Shown here one piece after another: positions 4,078-50,054 of a stretch of 50,274 bases of DNA. Both the position numbers and the translations under genes were made by a program. The notes under the pieces are model-generated. The model was given only the letters and a program-made list of their open reading frames with translations. It had not been told where the DNA came from and did no database searches. Each line of letters starts with the position of its first letter. Within the stretch, counting starts at the first letter, position 1. Source of the stretch: an uncultured Bacteroidales bacterium (GTDB lineage: Bacteria; Bacteroidota; Bacteroidia; Bacteroidales; Bacteroidaceae); the NCBI GenBank assembly GCA_902779315.1, contig CACZBC010000018.1, positions 1-50,274 of the forward strand, given 5' to 3'.

Positions 4078-4590
4078 ATGGACAAACTTTCTCCCCAGCA
4101 AAGGCACGATTGTATGGCTTCCATCCGGTCGAAGGACACGAAGCCCGAACTGGTTGTGCGGAAGGGCTTGTGGAAGAGGGGTTTCCGATACCGACTGAAC
4201 GACAAACGACTGCCAGGACATCCCGACTTGGTCCTCAGAAAATACCGCACTTGCATCTTCGTGAACGGCTGTTTCTGGCACGGACACGGTGTGACGGAGT
4301 CACATAAGACCGACCTTGTGGATTCCGCTTGCTGCAAGATTCCCAGGGCGAATCGTGAGTTCTGGGTGGCTAAGATCAGGCGTAACATGCAGAGGGACAA
4401 GGAGGAACAAAGGAAACTGGCCGAAATGGGTTGGCACTCGATTACGGTCTGGGAATGCTCCCTGGAGCCAAAACAGAGGGAAAAGACGCTCGACTCGATT
4501 GCCTTTACTCTGAACCACATCTGGCTGAAAGACCGCGGGGCCTATCCGGAACTGGAAGAAACCAGGCTGCAGGTGGCAGAAGAAGAATAA
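4078..4590 (+). CDS. vsr: Very short patch repair endonuclease Vsr
   Basis: A 170-aa Vsr. It nicks DNA at T:G mismatches made by deamination of 5-methylcytosine, starting very-short-patch repair, and commonly travels with Dcm-type methyltransferases. Motifs: R-S-K-D-T-K-P-E near 17-24, G-H-P-D with the metal ligand Asp50, N-G-C-F-W-H-G-H at 63-70, F-W near 98, and V-W-E-C in the last third. The position of E. coli His64, a catalytic residue, is Asn63 here; His68 and His70 are kept. Asn may be a common variant in Bacteroidetes, but I cannot check this. It starts 2 bp after the nuclease stop, so all three genes form one transcription unit. Confidence 0.92.
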   Translation: MDKLSPQQRHDCMASIRSKDTKPELVVRKGLWKRGFRYRLNDKRLPGHPDLVLRKYRTCIFVNGCFWHGHGVTESHKTDLVDSACCKIPRANREFWVAKIRRNMQRDKEEQRKLAEMGWHSITVWECSLEPKQREKTLDSIAFTLNHIWLKDRGAYPELEETRLQVAEEE

Positions 4591-4887
4591 GAATTAAAAA
4601 TTAAAAATTAAAAATTAAAAATGAAGGCTAGCTGACCGCTTAAAGGAATGAAAAATTAAAAATGAAAGGTCTGAACAGGACTATGGACTATGCACTATGC
4701 ACTTTCAATTATCTCTAACCGCTAACCGCTAAACGCTAAGGCTGCGAGAGCAGTCTCGACGAAGTCAAGATTGAAGATTGAAAATTGAAGATTGAAGATT
4801 GAAGATTGAAAGTCAACTATGCACTTTCAATTACCTCTAACCGCTAAACTCTAACCACTAAACGCTTTAAAATAAATTTCTAATAAG
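4591..4887. repeat. Spacer of short tandem repeats
   Basis: A gene-free 297-bp spacer made largely of heptamers: four perfect copies of ATTAAAA at 4593-4620, CTAACCG copies at about 4716-4740 and 4840-4865, and TTGAAGA-type copies at 4771-4812. A short module GCTGCGAGAGCAGTCTCGAC at 4741-4760 recurs in related form at 6770-6840 and near 29139-29165. I see no clear promoter for the GH16 gene. Confidence 0.8.
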
Positions 4888-6628: not shown

Positions 6629-6973
6629 CTGACAGCTTAGGAGAATTAAAAATTAAAAATGAAAAATTAAAAATTAAAAATTGAAGATTGAAGATTGAAG
6701 CGCTAACCGCTAACCTTCTAACCTTCTAACCTTCTAACCTCTAACCGCTAACCTCTAACCGCTAACCGCTAAGGCTGCGATTAAGCGAGAGCAATATCAA
6801 GTTTACTTAAATATTGCCGAGCGAGAGCAGTCTCGACCAAAGGTCAACCTCTAACCGCTAAACTATAAACTGATTCCATTTCTGTCGGATTTCGAACTTT
6901 TTCTGCCTTTATTGGCTCGTTTTTGAAATAAAAGTAGTATCTTTGTGGCGTTTTTACGCGCGAGTGCGCGAAA
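6629..6973. repeat. 345-bp spacer of short tandem repeats with a hairpin
   Basis: No gene seen. Copies of ATTAAAA at about 6645-6680, TTGAAGA near 6681-6698, CTAACCG and CCTTCTAA copies at 6700-6772, then a hairpin GCAATAT 6791-6797 / ATATTGC 6811-6817 and the module CGAGAGCAGTCTCG at 6823-6836. The last 80 bp carry the promoter of the next operon. Confidence 0.75.
6938..6945 (+). promoter_or_regulatory. -7 element TATCTTTG for the DUF1599-folE operon
   Basis: TATCTTTG at 6938-6945, 29 nt before the first ATG. The -33 element is not clear; ATTG at 6911-6914 gives a 23-nt spacer. Confidence 0.5.
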
Positions 6974-7566: not shown

Positions 7567-8715
7567 ATGTCCAAGAGTTCCAATTTTCTGCACAGCACAC
7601 TTCCTTCCATCTTGGTGAATGTGGTCCGACTGGTTCTGGGCCTGACCTTCCTGTTCTCGGGAACGGTCAAGCTGATTGACCCTCGTGGCACCCAGTACAA
7701 GATAGAGGACTACGGGGCTGCCTTCGGTCTGACCGGCTCGATGCCGGAGTCTCTGCCTTTGGTACTGGCTTGTGTGCTGGCCATTGTGGAGTTCCTGATG
7801 GGCGTGTATCTGCTGTTTGGCATCCGCAGGCGTCTGACGCTCTCTACGGCCATTTGCTTCCTGCTCATCATGACGCCCCTGACGCTCTACCTGGCTCTGA
7901 ACAACCCGATTTCCGACTGTGGCTGTTTCGGCGATGCCGTCAAGCTGTCGAACTGGCAGACCTTCTGGAAGAATGTGGTGCTGCTCGTGCTCTCCGTCTT
8001 TGCGCTATACAAGTTCAGACTGATGCCTCACTTTGTGGGCAAGAAGTACGAATGGATTGTGGCCCTTCTGGCACTCGTCTTTGCCGTATTGTTCTGCAGT
8101 TACAACCTGTGGCGCTTGCCCATCATAGACTTCCGTCCCTATCACATCGGAGCCGACATCCGACAGGCTTGGCTGGACGACCAGCAGAACTTCGGTGAAT
8201 ACCAGACGACCTTCATCCTGGAGAAGGACGGCGTCAGGAAGGAGTTCAGCCTGGAGGAATATCCCGACAGCACCTGGACCTTTATCGACACGAAGACCGT
8301 TCAGACCGAAGCCACGGAGCGAAGTGGAGTGGGGGACCTGTTCATCCGCGACCTGGAGACGGGCGAAGACATCACTCTGCAGATCCTGGAGAACGAGGGC
8401 TATACGCTCCTTTTGGTGGCTCCCTATCTGGAGAAAGCCGATGACGGCAGGATGGGCGAACTGCTGGCTCTGCACGATTTCAGCAAGGAGGCGGGTTACG
8501 ACTTCTGGTGCCTCACTTCGAGCGGAGAAAAGGCCATAGAGAACTGGAAGGAAATGACCGGAGCGGAATATCCGTTCGGACTGGCAGATGCTGTGGTGCT
8601 GAAGACTATGATTCGCTCGAACCCCGGTCTGATGCTCATCCACGACGGTAAGGTGGTGGGCAAATGGCCCTCGACGGACCTGCCGACACCGGAGGAATTG
8701 AAAATTGAAAATTAA
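7567..8715 (+). CDS. DoxX/MauE-like membrane protein with C-terminal thioredoxin-like region
   Basis: A 382-aa inner-membrane protein with four to five helices in residues 15-180, including a conserved D-C-G-C-F-G (Cys118, Cys120) after the third helix, as in MauE/DoxX redox-linked membrane proteins. The C-terminal half (about 190-382) is probably periplasmic and may have a thioredoxin-like fold, but it lacks a C-x-x-C motif. It starts 17 bp after DUF1599. The C-terminus L-K-I-E-N and stop are written by the heptamer-like repeat that begins the following spacer. The precise role is unknown; a link to disulfide or quinone chemistry is inferred. Confidence 0.8.
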   Translation: MSKSSNFLHSTLPSILVNVVRLVLGLTFLFSGTVKLIDPRGTQYKIEDYGAAFGLTGSMPESLPLVLACVLAIVEFLMGVYLLFGIRRRLTLSTAICFLLIMTPLTLYLALNNPISDCGCFGDAVKLSNWQTFWKNVVLLVLSVFALYKFRLMPHFVGKKYEWIVALLALVFAVLFCSYNLWRLPIIDFRPYHIGADIRQAWLDDQQNFGEYQTTFILEKDGVRKEFSLEEYPDSTWTFIDTKTVQTEATERSGVGDLFIRDLETGEDITLQILENEGYTLLLVAPYLEKADDGRMGELLALHDFSKEAGYDFWCLTSSGEKAIENWKEMTGAEYPFGLADAVVLKTMIRSNPGLMLIHDGKVVGKWPSTDLPTPEELKIEN

Positions 8716-8764
8716 AAATTGAAGATTGAAAATTGAAGATTAATAATTAAAAATTAAAACACAC
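8701..8764. repeat. Short A/T-rich tandem repeat between DoxX gene and tpiA
   Basis: Mixed units of TTGAAAA, TTGAAGA and ATTAAAA. The tract overlaps the 3' end of the DoxX coding region and ends 3-5 bp before the tpiA start region. Confidence 0.7.
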
Positions 8765-18447: not shown

Positions 18448-18541
18448 TCTTTTGGCCGTTAAAACCCCTCATTTGTTTGTAGAAACCCTCTATAATGGGA
18501 TTTTGTGCCCCTGCAATGGCTTTTGAACGACAGGAATTTGC

Positions 18542-18549
18542 TATCTTTG
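18542..18549 (+). promoter_or_regulatory. -7 element of the LytTR gene
   Basis: TATCTTTG at 18542-18549, only 8 nt before the ATG at 18558, so the mRNA would be almost leaderless. The -33 element is weak. Confidence 0.5.
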
Positions 18550-18557
18550 TTGTCGAA

Positions 18558-19274
18558 ATGAAACGAACGACACTCATTATTCTCTATTGGTCAGTGGCAT
18601 TGGTTCTGTTTGCCATTGTACTTTCCAGCACAGGTTACACATTTGCCGAAGCCTTGTTCCTTGCTAGTTCGCTTTTACCTGTGGCTGTATTGTTCCGTTA
18701 TCTGTTGGTACAGGTGCGTTTTAGCTCCAGACGGCAAGGAATACGCAATGTGTGTTTCCTTACACTATTCATTCTCACGCTGGCCTTCCTTGCCGTTCTT
18801 TTGGCACATGTCATCATCCTATTCCATCGCCAGTTGTTTACTACCGAGTTGGGAGTGTCTCCCATATTGCTCAATCCGATCTTTCTGTTAGCCATGCTTT
18901 TGCTGATAATAGCAGGCGATTATTTCTTTGAACAACTCATCAGGGAACATTTGCCTGAAAGCGAGGAGTCAATAACTTTCAATAGTGACCGCCAGTCCGT
19001 GAAACTCCAAAGGAAAGAAATTCTCTATGTTGAGAGTTGTGATACAGAGACTTGGATTTATGCCACAGAAGGTCGTCGCTACCGCAACAAACGTTCCATT
19101 TCAGCATGGGCGAATCTTCTGGGACGCGACTTTATCCGCATCCATCGTTCCTATCTTGTCCGTATCTCTGCCTGCCTGGGACGTGAAGGAGAGAACATTC
19201 TGATAGGCGACGCTCGCCTCCCTATTTCGCGCAAGTATAAGGTGGAAGTGCAACAAACCGTTTCTGAGAGATGA
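18558..19274 (+). CDS. Membrane-anchored LytTR-type DNA-binding regulator
   Basis: A 238-aa protein: four membrane helices in residues 5-125, then a LytTR DNA-binding domain from about 135 (I-L-Y-V-E-S-C-D-T-E-T-W-I-Y, then F-I-R-I-H-R-S-Y-L-V-R). The frame is open from 18495, but the start at 18558 fits the promoter and places the first helix at the N-terminus. It probably senses something in the membrane and controls nearby promoters, most simply the divergent gene at 18005. There is no receiver domain and no partner histidine kinase is seen. Confidence 0.85.
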   Translation: MKRTTLIILYWSVALVLFAIVLSSTGYTFAEALFLASSLLPVAVLFRYLLVQVRFSSRRQGIRNVCFLTLFILTLAFLAVLLAHVIILFHRQLFTTELGVSPILLNPIFLLAMLLLIIAGDYFFEQLIREHLPESEESITFNSDRQSVKLQRKEILYVESCDTETWIYATEGRRYRNKRSISAWANLLGRDFIRIHRSYLVRISACLGREGENILIGDARLPISRKYKVEVQQTVSER

Positions 19275-19656
19275 TGCACAATAAAGCCATGAAGGCAAAG
19301 CGTTAACCGTTAACTGTTAACTGGCATAAAAGACATTTACGCTATTGCTTTTTCTTTCAGGCATATATATTATTATAATAGTATATAAATATAATAATAA
19401 ATAATGTATAGATAGTATTGTTTCTTTCGAGGCATTTTGAGCGTATGTGTGTATATATTGAAAACGGCACTTAACACATAACACTTAACGCTCTTCGTGT
19501 GACGCCTCGAAACGTGGCGTAGTTAAAATCCAAACGTATAGTGTTACGATTGCCAACGTATAGTGCCACGATTGCATTTATCACGTGTGTCGTTTGCAAT
19601 CATCACGTGTGTCGTTTGCATTCATCCCTGCAGTCGTTCCCCTACGGATAAAGTGA
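19275..19656. other. Gene-free island A: AT-rich tract, inverted repeat, 22-bp array
   Basis: No gene. Contents in order: an AT-rich tract at 19363-19413; the inverted repeat TTTCGAGGC 19425-19433 / GCCTCGAAA 19504-19512 with inner GAGCG/CGCTC; then the 22-bp array 19510-19641. The array ends just before the ompA terminator. Confidence 0.8.
19510..19641 (-). repeat. Array A: six tandem degenerate 22-bp units
   Basis: Six consecutive units of exactly 22 bp starting at 19510, 19532, 19554, 19576, 19598 and 19620. On the plus strand most share GTG at unit positions 10-12 and CG(A/T)TTGC at positions 16-22; units 2 and 3 share CGTATAGTG, units 4 and 5 share ATCACGTGTGTCGTTTGC. The last unit, with CCCTGCAGTCGTTCCC, matches an end unit of array C at 40422-40443. 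Assigned to the minus strand because array C runs in the opposite direction. Confidence 0.85.
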
Positions 19657-19684
19657 AAGCCCCACCACGATTGTGGCAGGGCTT
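19657..19684 (-). terminator. Terminator of ompA
   Basis: AAGCCC 19657-19662 pairs with GGGCTT 19679-19684 and CCAC 19665-19668 with GTGG 19673-19676. Read on the minus strand, the stem is followed by TTTCACTTTA, 33 bp after the ompA stop. Confidence 0.65.
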
Positions 19685-19717
19685 CCTTGTTAATCTGTTA
19701 CTGAGACTTGTCTCTAA

Positions 19718-20797
19718 TTACTTGATTGTAACGTAAACGATACGCTGTGACTCTGGGCCTTCAGCACCGTGTGCATTTGTGCCGGCAACCTTCACGCCGC
19801 GATCCTCAAGATAAGCCTTGACTGCATCGCAACGACGCTGTGACAGCTTCTGGTTGTAACCCTTAGCACCTTCTGGAGAAGCATAACCATCGAGAACAAC
19901 AGTAGCGCTCTTGTCGATAGTGTTCAGCTTAGCCTTAGCGGTGTTGGTGAGAGTAGCCTTGTTCAGAGCGAACTCAACGGTTACGCCGTTACCAACGTTC
20001 TTAGTGACAACCTTCTCAACAACCTTCTCGACAACCTTCTCAACGGGTCTGTCAACCATCTTCTCAACAACCTTGGTAACCTCGACGGGCTTAACCTCGG
20101 TGAAGTAGTGCTGACCGTTGCTGGTCTTGAAGTGATAGGTAACACCAGCGGTAATCTGACCGATGCAGTTGTGACCATAAGCGAGGCAAGCGCCATTGTC
20201 GCATACAACGGGCATACCTACACCAGGATTGCCGCGAACGATGTCGTTGTCGCGAGAGGTCTTGAGGATAACTGCAGGACGGAGGCTGATTGTCCAAGCC
20301 TTCTTCTCACCAAGGTTGAAGTCGAAGTCAAGACCGAGCTTTACATTGCAACGGTTGAGGTCGTTAGCACTTTCAGTGGTGATGCCATCGTAAGAGGGCC
20401 AGAAGAAGCGAGTATAACCTACACCGCCACGTGCTTGAATTTCGAAGAAGCGAGGAGCTCCCTTGTAGCCACCAAACCAGTTCATGAGGTTGATCTTGGT
20501 GTTAGCATAAACGCTAGCATTGTCAACAACATTGGCGCTCTTGAATGCCCAGTTCCAGTTGGCATCATCGTTGAAGCCAGCCTGAAGTTGGAATTCCAAG
20601 CTCAGAACAGGAGTGATACCCTTGGTGAAGTTGATGCCAGCTACTGCGCCATTGGGAACATCCCAATCATGCAGGTTTGTGCTTACGCCACCTTCTGCAC
20701 CAATTGACCAGTTGTCGAAAAACTTGTGACCAGTGTACTGTGCACTGGATGCCATTGCCATAGCGAACATAGCAATAACGAGAGTAATCTTTTTCAT
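19718..20797 (-). CDS. OmpA-family outer membrane protein
   Basis: A 359-aa protein: signal peptide cut near S-S-A-Q (residue 19), an N-terminal beta-barrel-type region of about 20-230, a charged linker of V-E-K-V-V-E-K repeats at about 235-265, and a C-terminal OmpA domain (F-A-L-N-K-A-T-L, D-G-Y-A-S-P-E-G, N-Q-K-L-S-Q-R-R) that should bind peptidoglycan. It probably links outer membrane and cell wall and is likely abundant, given its strong promoter and own terminator. The linker DNA is a tandem ACCTTCTCAACA-like repeat that could vary in length. Confidence 0.92.
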   Translation of the reverse strand: MKKITLVIAMFAMAMASSAQYTGHKFFDNWSIGAEGGVSTNLHDWDVPNGAVAGINFTKGITPVLSLEFQLQAGFNDDANWNWAFKSANVVDNASVYANTKINLMNWFGGYKGAPRFFEIQARGGVGYTRFFWPSYDGITTESANDLNRCNVKLGLDFDFNLGEKKAWTISLRPAVILKTSRDNDIVRGNPGVGMPVVCDNGACLAYGHNCIGQITAGVTYHFKTSNGQHYFTEVKPVEVTKVVEKMVDRPVEKVVEKVVEKVVTKNVGNGVTVEFALNKATLTNTAKAKLNTIDKSATVVLDGYASPEGAKGYNQKLSQRRCDAVKAYLEDRGVKVAGTNAHGAEGPESQRIVYVTIK

Positions 20798-25452: not shown

Positions 25453-25488
25453 ATTTTTGTAGTTTAGAGTTGAGTTTTTGAGTTTTGT

Positions 25489-26565
25489 CTATTTATGTGG
25501 TCTGTCGATGAGGCCATAGCCGTTGGTGGCGTGGGCTCTGCGATAGTGTATTTGTTCCAGCTCCTTTGGCGTCCCTTTCGAGGGGAGGTCGTTCCTCCTG
25601 GCATCCTCGAGCATTTTCCACGAGTACTCGCTGGCAATGGCTGCGTCGCGGAAACGGGGTAGGGAGTCTGGTCGCTTGCCTGTCAGGATGGCTTGGCCCA
25701 TCAGTTTGCAGAGTCGGTCTATGTTCTTGTCGCCATAGGGTTGCTCCAGCCGTTCTGTGGTGTGTTCGCCATGCATTTCCACAACGGCTGTCTTGAAGTC
25801 GTGCGTCATGCGTACGAAGCCTTTGCTGCCTATGAGTTCCGTATAGGAGTTGTGTGTCTGGTCGAGTGCGAGCTGACCATAGACGAAACCCTGTGTGATG
25901 TCGTAGACGATGCCGTTCTCGAAGGTCCCATGGCACTGCAGCCACCATGGGTCTTTGTAGTCCCACATGCGAATGGCCTGAGCATGTCCTGTCTTGTACT
26001 CGGAATCGGCATACCAACGGGCTATGTCCACATAGTGCATGCCGCAGTCGTGGAAGGACGGGCCTTCGAATTCGTGCCCTTCTCCCGGGGAGAGTCCTGG
26101 TGTCATGTGGCAGATGCGTATGATGGCGAGTTCGCCTATCTCTCCGCTCTTGACGAAGTCCTTCATGGCCTGGGTGTACCATGCGTTTCGGAGGTAGAGG
26201 TTGACGGTGCAGAACTTGTCTGTCGACTCCTCGAGCTTGACCACGTCCCATTCCTCCTCGAGTTTGTAGGCGAGTGGTTTCTCGCAGATGACGTGCTTAC
26301 CTGCCTTGACGGCTTTCTCTATTCGGCTTGCTCGTGTGTCAGCCAGGGCGAAGAGGCCCACGCACTCCACTTCGGGGTCGTTCCAGAGGTCGCGTTCGTC
26401 TGTGGTGAAGATGGCCTCTGGGGCTATCTCGTGCGATTCCTTGACTTTTTCCGGGTTGATGTCGCAGGTGTATTTCACCTCCCAATATTCTGAGGCCACA
26501 AGTTCCCTCAGGTGCTTGCGTCCCATTCTGCCTAATCCTATGATGCCAATCTTTATCCTGTTCAT
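25489..26565 (-). CDS. Gfo/Idh/MocA oxidoreductase, cytoplasmic
   Basis: A 358-aa NAD(P)-dependent oxidoreductase without a signal peptide. G-L-G-R-M-G-R-K-H at 11-19 binds the nucleotide and C-E-K-P-L is near 95-99; H-D-C-G-M-H-Y-V-D near 174-182 supplies likely catalytic residues. It heads the operon and may reduce or oxidise the sugar released after periplasmic steps. Substrate unknown. Its promoter lies 57 bp upstream. Confidence 0.9.
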   Translation of the reverse strand: MNRIKIGIIGLGRMGRKHLRELVASEYWEVKYTCDINPEKVKESHEIAPEAIFTTDERDLWNDPEVECVGLFALADTRASRIEKAVKAGKHVICEKPLAYKLEEEWDVVKLEESTDKFCTVNLYLRNAWYTQAMKDFVKSGEIGELAIIRICHMTPGLSPGEGHEFEGPSFHDCGMHYVDIARWYADSEYKTGHAQAIRMWDYKDPWWLQCHGTFENGIVYDITQGFVYGQLALDQTHNSYTELIGSKGFVRMTHDFKTAVVEMHGEHTTERLEQPYGDKNIDRLCKLMGQAILTGKRPDSLPRFRDAAIASEYSWKMLEDARRNDLPSKGTPKELEQIHYRRAHATNGYGLIDRPHK

Positions 26566-28309: not shown

Positions 28310-28492
28310 AAGAGTATTAACGAAACTTAAAAAGCGACAAATAGAACAATTTTGCCCCTTTTTCGTCACAAATTGTCATGTTTCCTGTGGAGAAAATGAG
28401 TCTAGGCGTTGGCGCTTATGGCTTACTGTTTACCGTTTCGAGTTTGTCGGATTTGAAATCCCTCCGAACATAGACCTTTAATTCCTCTTTCT

Positions 28493-28580
28493 TAATTCAT
28501 AGTGTTACGAATGCAATCGTATAGTGTTAAATTGGCCACTTTAACGTGTTACGTTTGCAATCATAACGTTGTGTGTCAGC
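28493..28580 (-). repeat. Array B: four tandem degenerate 22-bp units
   Basis: Units start at 28493, 28515, 28537 and 28559, each exactly 22 bp. They share the wording of array A: ATAGTGTTACG, AACGTGTTACGTTTGC and AATC at unit starts. The array is assigned to the same orientation as array A. A possible fifth, decayed unit follows at 28581-28602. Confidence 0.75.
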
Positions 28581-40421: not shown

Positions 40422-40553
40422 GGGAACTACTGCAGGGTAAACTCGGATTTTCACACGCGATGTTTGCAAACTTCAAACGTGACAAATGCAATCGTCACAC
40501 TAGTTAATCGCAATCGTGGCACTATATGTTTGCAATCGTGGCACTATACGATT
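40422..40553 (+). repeat. Array C: six tandem degenerate 22-bp units
   Basis: Units start at 40422, 40444, 40466, 40488, 40510 and 40532. The last three share GCAATCG, with CACTA in the middle; 40510 and 40532 are identical over GCAATCGTGGCACTATA. The first unit GGGAACTACTGCAGGG matches the end unit of array A read on the minus strand. Both arrays have six units and the same distinctive end, so they are copies of one element. Confidence 0.85.
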
Positions 40554-40566
40554 GCATGCATACGGC

Positions 40567-42927: not shown

Positions 42928-43551
42928 TTAGAGGGGCAGATAGACCAGCTTCTTCGTCTGGAAGAATTCCTCTTCAAAGTATTCGCTCAAGTTCGTGATT
43001 TGTGCGGCATTTCCGAAGGGGCGCGCTTCCTGTTCCAGTTCGCCGCCTTTCAGGCAAATCAGACCGTTCGGGAGCGCGTTTATCTGCTCCTTGCAAATGT
43101 GTTTGCGCACGATTTTGACGAGGTCGGGCAGGGGCATCACGGCTCGCGAAACGACGAAGTGGAACTGCTCTTTGACGGCTTCGGCCCGACTCCATTGGGT
43201 GGTGACGTTCTGCAGTCCCAAAGCGTTCTTCACCTCTTCGCAGACGCGAATCTTCTTTCCGATGGAGTCGACGAGGTGGAACTTCACTTCGGGGAACATG
43301 ATGGCGAGGGGGATGCCGGGGAAACCGCCTCCCGTGCCGAGGTCCATGATGCGTGTGCCAGGCTTGAAGCGAATCAGTTCGGCTATGGCGAGGGAATGCA
43401 GGATGTGGTGTTCGTAGAGGTTGTCGATGTCCTTTCGCGAGATGACGTTAATCTTGCTGTTCCAGTCGCGATAGAGTGCATCGAGTGCCTCAAACTGCTC
43501 CTTCTGCGCATCGTTCAGGGGGAAATATTTGGAGAGGAGTTCACAATTCAT
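42928..43551 (-). CDS. rsmG: 16S rRNA (guanine527-N7)-methyltransferase
   Basis: A 207-aa SAM-dependent enzyme that methylates G527 of 16S rRNA; loss of the enzyme gives low-level streptomycin resistance in other bacteria. Seen: I-S-R-K-D near 38-42, H-I-L-H-S-L, and the SAM motif M-D-L-G-T-G-G-G-F-P-G-I-P-L-A. The start ATG at 43551-43549 is part of a 14-bp tandem repeat (43538-43579), which offers further ATGs 14 and 28 bp upstream in other frames. Confidence 0.96.
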   Translation of the reverse strand: MNCELLSKYFPLNDAQKEQFEALDALYRDWNSKINVISRKDIDNLYEHHILHSLAIAELIRFKPGTRIMDLGTGGGFPGIPLAIMFPEVKFHLVDSIGKKIRVCEEVKNALGLQNVTTQWSRAEAVKEQFHFVVSRAVMPLPDLVKIVRKHICKEQINALPNGLICLKGGELEQEARPFGNAAQITNLSEYFEEEFFQTKKLVYLPL

Positions 43552-43584
43552 AGTTCACAATTCATAGTTCACAATTCATAGTTC
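43538..43584. repeat. Three perfect 14-bp repeats across nhaC stop and rsmG start
   Basis: AGTTCACAATTCAT at 43538-43551, 43552-43565 and 43566-43579, plus a partial AGTTC. It encodes the first residues of RsmG (M-N-C-E-L) and the last residues of the antiporter (T-M-N-C-E-L). Confidence 0.9.
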
Positions 43585-49558: not shown

Positions 49559-49565
49559 CAAAATA

Positions 49566-49593
49566 ATTCATAATTCATAATTCATAATTCATA
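49566..49593. repeat. Four perfect ATTCATA heptamers
   Basis: Copies at 49566, 49573, 49580 and 49587, immediately upstream of the porin -7 element. Confidence 0.9.
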
Positions 49594-50054
49594 ATTATTT
49601 TATGTTTTTCTGACAAAATGAAAGCGTTTTGCCCTGATTGCTTGCAAATTGCACCGTGCCAACGCAGGAAAGGGGCAGCCGAACTCTCTCGAACTGCCCT
49701 TCCTGCCCATGCTGGGGCATCAAAAATTAATTGTGAATTGTGAAATTGTGAAGGGTCTCGTTTCTATGCGGCCGAGGCGCTATCCGCATGAACCGCACGG
49801 CAAAAGTGCTGATGTGCTCATCGTGACGCTCGTCCAAATACTTTAATTTCGTCTAAAAGTGTTGCAATCTTGTCTGAAATATGTTGTAATCTTATCTTTT
49901 TTTGCAAAAATGTGAAGGAAGGTGATAGGTGTTCGGAAAAATTTTGTACCTTTACGGCGTCTTCAGCATTTTAAGGTATGAGAAAGATTGAAGTGAAAAC
50001 AAGCATTCATTCAAAATAATCATTAACTGATCTATTAACTAAATCAACACAATA
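49594..50054. other. Gene-free spacer D with possible 22-bp units
   Basis: No gene. It contains a hairpin AGGGGCAG / CTGCCCTT at about 49675-49703, possible 22-bp units at 49844-49909 (AATCTTGTC and AATCTTATC start 22 bp apart; TGTTGCAATC as in array A), and a promoter-like TACCTTTA at 49947-49954 for the last gene. Confidence 0.5.

Follow-up and report, generated by a model that had tools for sequence, protein, structure and literature searches.

Array A, a run of six 22-bp units between two convergent genes of an uncultured Bacteroidales bacterium, is confirmed: it far exceeds chance expectation, and hundreds of such short arrays lie between genes in a group of rumen bacteria. The place of an array tends to stay between species while the sequence of its unit is replaced, and our observations point to arrays whose recognition depends less on sequence than on spacing and symmetry.

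Array A and its relatives in the window

The window, i.e. the whole stretch of 50,274 nucleotides that was analysed, contains array A, the weaker array B and array C. The features concerned are the following, the scores being self-identity at lag 22 over 66 positions:

18495..19274, + strand: LytTR-domain gene, left member of the convergent pair, upstream of array A
19510..19641, + strand: array A, six contiguous 22-bp units, lag-22 score 50 of 66
19657..19684, no strand assigned: intrinsic-terminator-like hairpin, seen by eye, between array A and the end of the OmpA-family gene
19718..20797, - strand: OmpA-family gene, right member of the convergent pair flanking array A
28491..28578, + strand: array B, four units of the kind found in A, weaker, lag-22 score 39 of 66
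40422..40554, - strand: array C, six units, inverted relative of A, lag-22 score 48 of 66

In 100 copies of the window made with a first-order Markov model, the lag-22 score reached 34 at most. With regard to chance matches in shuffled DNA, a concern raised in the sequence-only reading, the pattern of the type I unit, with up to 3 mismatches allowed, was found five times in the window, each time within A, B or C, and was absent from 100 dinucleotide shuffles. The exact 22-bp spacing of the six units of array A, which that reading had proposed, was borne out, the units being contiguous, and array C was confirmed as an inverted relative of A, with six units in the opposite orientation. The fixed positions ascribed to the units, GTG at 10-12 and CGWTTGC at 16-22, are present in four of the six units of array A, and the end units AAACGTGGCGTAGTTAAAATCC and ATTCATCCCTGCAGTCGTTCCC deviate from them.

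Array A opens with the end unit AAACGTGGCGTAGTTAAAATCC, which is followed by two units of type I (GTATAGTG core), two of type III (CACGTGTG core) and an end unit bearing CTGCAG. Array C reads GGGAACTACTGCAGGG at its 40422 edge (plus-strand letters). The terminator-like hairpin is separate from array A. The window gave no match above the gathering score in Rfam 15, and at 19400-19760, with E values up to 5, the single match, beside the array, was at chance level (sar, E 0.48). The genome also has a second type of short tandem repeat, present in the window as arrays of 7-bp units (TAAAAAT, AATTAAA, CTAACCT, ATAATTC and others) at 4588-4863, 6644-6772, 8696-8759, 43538-43584 and 49563-49596.

Arrays and unit families across genomes

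The idea that a genome scan would reveal further arrays held in the window's own genome (G000; 2.83 Mb, 84% complete), in which the type I unit (up to 3 mismatches) matches 340 times and the reversed pattern not once. A BLAST search with array A returned at least 42 matches (the best 40 of 227 candidates scored). At a lag-22 score of 34 or more, contiguous stretches of five species exhibit roughly one array per 6-8 kb, with one peak per 7.5 kb in G000 (225 kb), 7.3 kb in G008 (315 kb), 5.8 kb in G005 (52 kb), 7.3 kb in G012 (240 kb) and 6.7 kb in G024 (168 kb); the stretches of G000 and G008 lie partly around known arrays, and those of G012, G024 and G005 were picked by synteny with the window. 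Because of this density, an iteron-like origin, one of the functions initially suggested, is not supported.

The period is strict. The contiguous stretches of the five species gave 140 peaks at lag 22 versus 3-7 at lags 19, 20, 23, 25 and 26. Samples from 25 genomes of the genus (673 kb) gave 54 peaks at lag 22, versus 0, 2, 2, 2 and 2 at lags 19, 20, 23, 25 and 26, and 15, 18, 14 and 10 at lags 18, 21, 24 and 27; in these counts one long array may yield several peaks, and the samples of G000 and G020 had been selected for an array. The spacing first read from array A is thus a genome-wide feature in which only lag 22 is prominent. At least one lag-22 peak is present in 17 of the 25 samples and none in 8, and 23 peaks are found in the 20 genomes left after removal of the five most-studied species. 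In 258 kb from 16 genomes that belong to other families of the order, there is no excess, with 2 peaks at lag 22 versus 0-4 at the other lags tried. One genome of another family of the order (G035) exhibits a lone lag-22 array of palindromic-looking units, GTTCTTGCAAGAAC (L213, 11597).

With regard to their anatomy, 93 arrays from a 528-kb sample of G000, mostly fetched around matches, were oriented and cut into units. Arrays comprise 2 to 12 units, with 4-8 units in 89 of these 93. They usually exhibit an end unit close to AAAACGTGGCGTAGTTAAAATG, followed by CAAACGTATAGTGTGACGATTG (type I), CGATTTACTAGTGTGACGTTTG (type II) and CAAACGTCACGTGTGACGTTTG (type III), and a closing end unit whose reverse complement resembles the opening one. 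A polarity is observed along the array: position 4 is an A in 81% of the units of the first fifth and in 17% and 31% of those of the last two fifths. Neighbouring units within an array are 77% alike, versus 70% for the same positions of other arrays. The units are contiguous and without spacers, in agreement with the earlier statement that the repeat is not a CRISPR.

The unit sequences differ by species. In G008, the frame is the same and the core is another one (unit CAAACGTAACGTGTTACGTTTG; 131 matches at 3 mismatches, control 0). The motif GSTTAASC, present twice at 22 bp, was searched in 30 genomes and occurs at 278 places in G012, 256 in G024, 32 in G020, one each in G005 and G016, and none in the other 25. 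In fetched DNA, all GSTTAASC pairs within 100 bp (57 of 57 in G012 and 36 of 36 in G024) are spaced by 22, 44, 66 or, once, 88 bp. Several families are present in G012, where 31 arrays comprise 11 of the GSTTAASC kind, 8 with ACGTG, 5 with CTGCAG/TTCTCG, 2 with CTACTGCC and 5 others. The G000 array at C28:30225 (L244) also belongs to another family, of near-perfect 22-bp palindromes (TTGCTCCTTCATGTAGGAGCAA), and the G008 orthologues overlap there. In G005 (L194 5003-5225 and L197 (G005:C22) 25458-25730), two arrays of unrelated units are found next to each other where other species have one.

At 2 mismatches, the G000 unit was matched in 5 of 301 family genomes (241 times in its own genome and once in each of four others), the reversed control likewise in five, in a draw from which G008 and G005 are absent. 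A pattern scan of named genome contigs found at least 79 stretches: at least 38 in the MAG RGIG10220 and at least 31 in RGIG9745, both titled Bacteroidaceae bacterium and derived from yak rumen and omasum, at least 4 in other rumen MAGs, and at least 6 under unrelated titles, of which the six among the matches listed were excluded from the comparison as chance. Viral spread was rejected, the sole match to a viral contig (L188) being a lone one with no adjoining array in the 351 bases read.

Position relative to genes and conservation of place

The claim that array A is not a coding repeat extends to its relatives. At a slightly stricter cut, G000 yielded 92 arrays, 88 of which could be placed between gene calls, made by a simple script based on codon usage instead of an annotation pipeline, and 87 of these 88 are intergenic: 54 lie between tandem, 20 between convergent and 13 between divergent genes. 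The sole array within a predicted gene (L073 1454-1541, G000:C25) falls in a gene call that may be false. The 54 arrays between tandem genes lie at a median of 14.5 bp past the upstream stop and 109 bp before the next start. In the contiguous stretches, the median distance from a stop is 11 bp in G000 and 19 bp in G008; as it reaches 81.5 bp in G012 and 92.5 bp in G024, proximity to stops is not general. In G000 and G008 together, an array is found in 26 of 37 intervals between convergent genes, versus 10 of 43 between divergent genes (p 4e-5) and 25 of 80 between tandem genes (p 1e-4). G012 and G024 show no significant convergent preference (15 of 32 convergent, 14 of 36 divergent and 23 of 66 tandem intervals).

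Window orthologues in the other species were located by flank searches. At the place of array A, an array is present in all five species, with four unit types, one of which is common to G012 and G024. The place of array B exhibits an array in G000, G008, G005, G012 and G024, G008 being assigned through one flanking gene only. The place of array C exhibits one in G000 and G008, and none above the threshold in G012 and G024. At a fourth place, arrays are found in G008, G005, G012 and G024, and none in G000.

Intergenic intervals of at least 60 bp with the same neighbours were then classed as having an array in both species, only the first, only the second, or neither. The counts are 10/2/0/25 for G000-G008 (p 1.9e-7), of which three of the ten shared arrays were already known (7/2/0/25 when these are removed) and place C had also been seen previously, and 15/1/2/27 for G012-G024 (p 5.9e-9). 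The more distant pairs gave 2/1/0/10 for both G008-G012 and G005-G012 (p 0.038 each), 1/0/0/10 for G000-G012 (p 0.09), 1/0/2/11 for G000-G005 (p 0.21), 0/0/1/10 for G008-G005 and 0/0/0/12 for G008-G024. When arrays were counted per gene side in six distant pairs, none was significant at p 0.05 on the 3' side (e.g. 6/3/1/5 for G008-G012 and 2/3/3/5 for G008-G024), and two were significant on the 5' side (6/0/2/12 for G008-G012, p 0.0007; 4/1/2/10 for G008-G024, p 0.028). Conservation of place is therefore firm in the close pairs G000-G008 and G012-G024, and suggestive in the distant pairs, for which the intervals are few and the results mixed.

The sisters of G000 align with it over long stretches (about 87-97% identity for RGIG9745 and 84-94% for RGIG10220). 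Each mapped G000-sister pair has an array on both sides, at loci that had been chosen by array matches. Where flanks are tight, the length difference is a multiple of 22 within one base in 33 of 33 cases (13 of 13 and 20 of 20 in the two sisters), and for G008 it is a multiple of 22 in 2 of 3. Such whole-unit steps could come from slippage, the arrays being 22-bp minisatellites whose symmetry is improved by quasi-palindrome template switching and which are tolerated without function. The greater likeness of adjacent units within an array and the avoidance of genes are consistent with this mutational origin, which we nevertheless consider distinctly improbable: it leaves unexplained the exclusive 22-bp period, the presence of a species-specific unit in hundreds of arrays, and places that are common to species despite the change in sequence.

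Gain or loss of arrays is also observed. G005 has arrays at C51:12648 and C22:19663, where the other species either lack an array or exhibit gaps of -11 to 60 bp. G000 has arrays at C28:30225 and C45:10521, two places that are array-free in G008. The presence of an array in one species where others have only such short gaps (both G005 places and C28:30225 of G000) could be explained by non-autonomous mobile repeats of the REP or MITE type. A transposase or gene conversion would spread each family, which would preferentially insert behind genes or into older arrays and so replace the older families at the same places. This would also account for the hundreds of copies per genome, for families that are species-specific, and for end units that are related and inverted. 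At the mapped places, however, which were chosen by array matches, sisters differ in unit number and not in presence, and the flanks of the gained arrays are too diverged for a target duplication to be readable. In addition, the RAYT-type Y1 transposase (PF01797) was found in none of six genomes, these MAGs being incomplete, by a search that was positive in 5 of 14 control genomes. Mobility of this kind is thus unlikely, although it deserves appreciable weight.

Unit symmetry, a possible protein lattice and known systems

In all six groups of arrays, the best 18-bp palindrome per 22 bp scores higher than in column-permuted units (5.5-6.6 of 9 matched, z 5.2-15.6). Control repeats at lags 18, 21, 24 and 27 have a lower score of 5.16, yet one above their permutations (z 8.8), and array-free intergenic DNA scores 5.01. 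The consensus unit is palindromic at z >2 in 46% of the 54 peaks. Strong dyads are 11, 22, 33 and 44 bp apart in G008, G005, G012, G024 and other members of the genus, so that an array amounts to a word of roughly 11 bp alternating with its own inverse; in G000, they are mostly 22 or 44 bp apart, and 11 bp apart once. At the within-unit pair 4/19 of G000, A-A and T-T are favoured at the expense of complementary pairs (OR 5.9, p 2e-13), and in G008 this pair is not significant (p 0.32). The units of G000 tend to combine one CAAACG half with one CAATCG half, rather than two halves alike.

Palindromic units could also act in the transcript, where the arrays would fold as 3'-end elements that terminate transcription or block exonucleases. 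The proximity of the G000 arrays to upstream stops in tandem genes fits this possibility, as do folding energies that are mildly low relative to dinucleotide shuffles on both strands (mean z -2.2 and -2.7, n=92), which is expected from palindromic units, and a pooled fold-back pairing at 4/19 that is mildly complementary (OR 0.60, p 0.011). Mismatches on the transcribed strand of tandem genes show no excess of G.U over A.C (86 v 90; 50 v 64), and of six sets one did so, with 86 v 57 (p 0.019); it came from convergent genes, where the choice of strand is arbitrary. Several RNA structures were rejected: per-unit hairpins in G000, for which the pair 4/19 is anti-complementary; an array-specific fold-back hairpin (z -1.5 when all columns are taken, z -2.1 at positions 4 and 19); and covarying terminal inverted repeats, which are striking by eye and were contradicted by permutation (z 0.09; p 0.45-0.50 for words of 6, 7 and 8). 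Replacement or accompaniment of terminators was likewise rejected, the arrays having no association with terminator-like hairpins (p 1.0 for convergent and 0.27 for tandem genes). With the G.U signature, array-specific covariation and any terminator link all absent, an RNA element is very unlikely, and the negative RNA tests place the constraint on duplex DNA. The constraint looks to act at the DNA level and, being strand-symmetric and free of an RNA-pairing signature, is compatible with protein-binding sites.

We tentatively favour the possibility, which we would still put short of probable, that the arrays mark gene ends as lattices of dyad sites, to which dimeric DNA-binding proteins specific to each family would bind. 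The 22-bp units, which are tandem and near-palindromic and whose dyads are mostly spaced by 11 or 22 bp, would be the lattice elements of duplex DNA, and each dyad would be the site of a putative dimeric protein, copies of which would line up over the whole array. Which unit family dominates in a species would follow from the specificity of the putative protein of that species, and an occupied array may mark the ends of genes architecturally or as a boundary. Candidate roles are the damping of convergent transcription, the limitation of supercoil spread, and nucleoid anchoring. The sole prominence of lag 22, the palindromy, places kept while the sequence is replaced, the 22-bp length steps, and the convergent preference in G000 and G008 argue for such a lattice. 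Against it stand the imperfect symmetry of G000, the palindromy of the control repeats at lags 18, 21, 24 and 27, the small number of intervals behind the conservation of place in distant pairs, and a preference for convergent genes and stops that is absent or weak in G012 and G024; moreover, one protein could hardly read several unrelated families, and these coexist in the genome of G012. In a broader and more speculative form, the arrays could be a satellite-DNA-like element of the whole genus, set by place and by the 11/22-bp dyad lattice, whose family is replaced in each species along with a fast-evolving DNA-binding protein, hundreds of gene-end marks thus switching together in place.

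As the letters change while period, symmetry and, in the species that were compared, place tend to stay, the arrays escape sequence-similarity searches. Non-coding elements are usually found through such similarity, and these arrays surfaced by a lag-wise scan of self-identity. Any function of the arrays would be on a large scale, given one site per 6-8 kb, and they would then be a test bed for a binding protein and hundreds of sites changing together. If they have no function, they would show how palindromic lattices come into being and are then kept at fixed places.

Searches of the openly accessible literature, in which subscription journals are mostly not covered, gave reports on BrickBuilt and REP elements and none on these arrays. 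BrickBuilt of Porphyromonas gingivalis is a minisatellite/MITE of contiguous intergenic 23-nt units, variable in number and with distinct ends; it has 19 copies in one genome, a leader and tail of up to 285 and 318 nt, and 12-nt IS5-type inverted ends (PMC4596501). BrickBuilt resembles the present arrays in its intergenic position, its short spacer-free units, its distinct ends, its variable unit count and its bacterial order, and differs from them in that they number in the hundreds, have near-palindromic 22-bp units, and keep their end units in the 22-bp register. The unit length here is 22 bp and not 23, with 54 peaks at lag 22 versus 2 at lag 23. The IS5-type ends GAGACCTTTGCA (up to 2 mismatches) have 10 matches in the window, none of them at A, B or C, versus 5.3 expected, and 10 was reached in 4 of 100 shuffles.

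REP/BIME elements, which are associated with RAYT transposases, are extragenic and palindromic, exceed 100 copies per genome, and form species-specific families. The present arrays share the extragenic position (87 of 88), the palindromy and the copy number (340 unit matches), and differ in their strict 22-bp lattice of contiguous units, in places common to species with different unit families, and in that no Y1 transposase turned up in the six genomes searched. The BOX elements of pneumococcus comprise an end module, a repeated middle module and another end module; they are modular like the present arrays, with longer modules and other hosts. The iterons of plasmid origins are protein-bound direct repeats about two helical turns apart, in one or a few clusters beside a Rep gene; the spacing is alike, whereas the arrays described here recur about once per 6-8 kb of chromosomal contigs. 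Based on these comparisons, we file the arrays as extragenic palindromic repeats placed outside the BrickBuilt and REP families.
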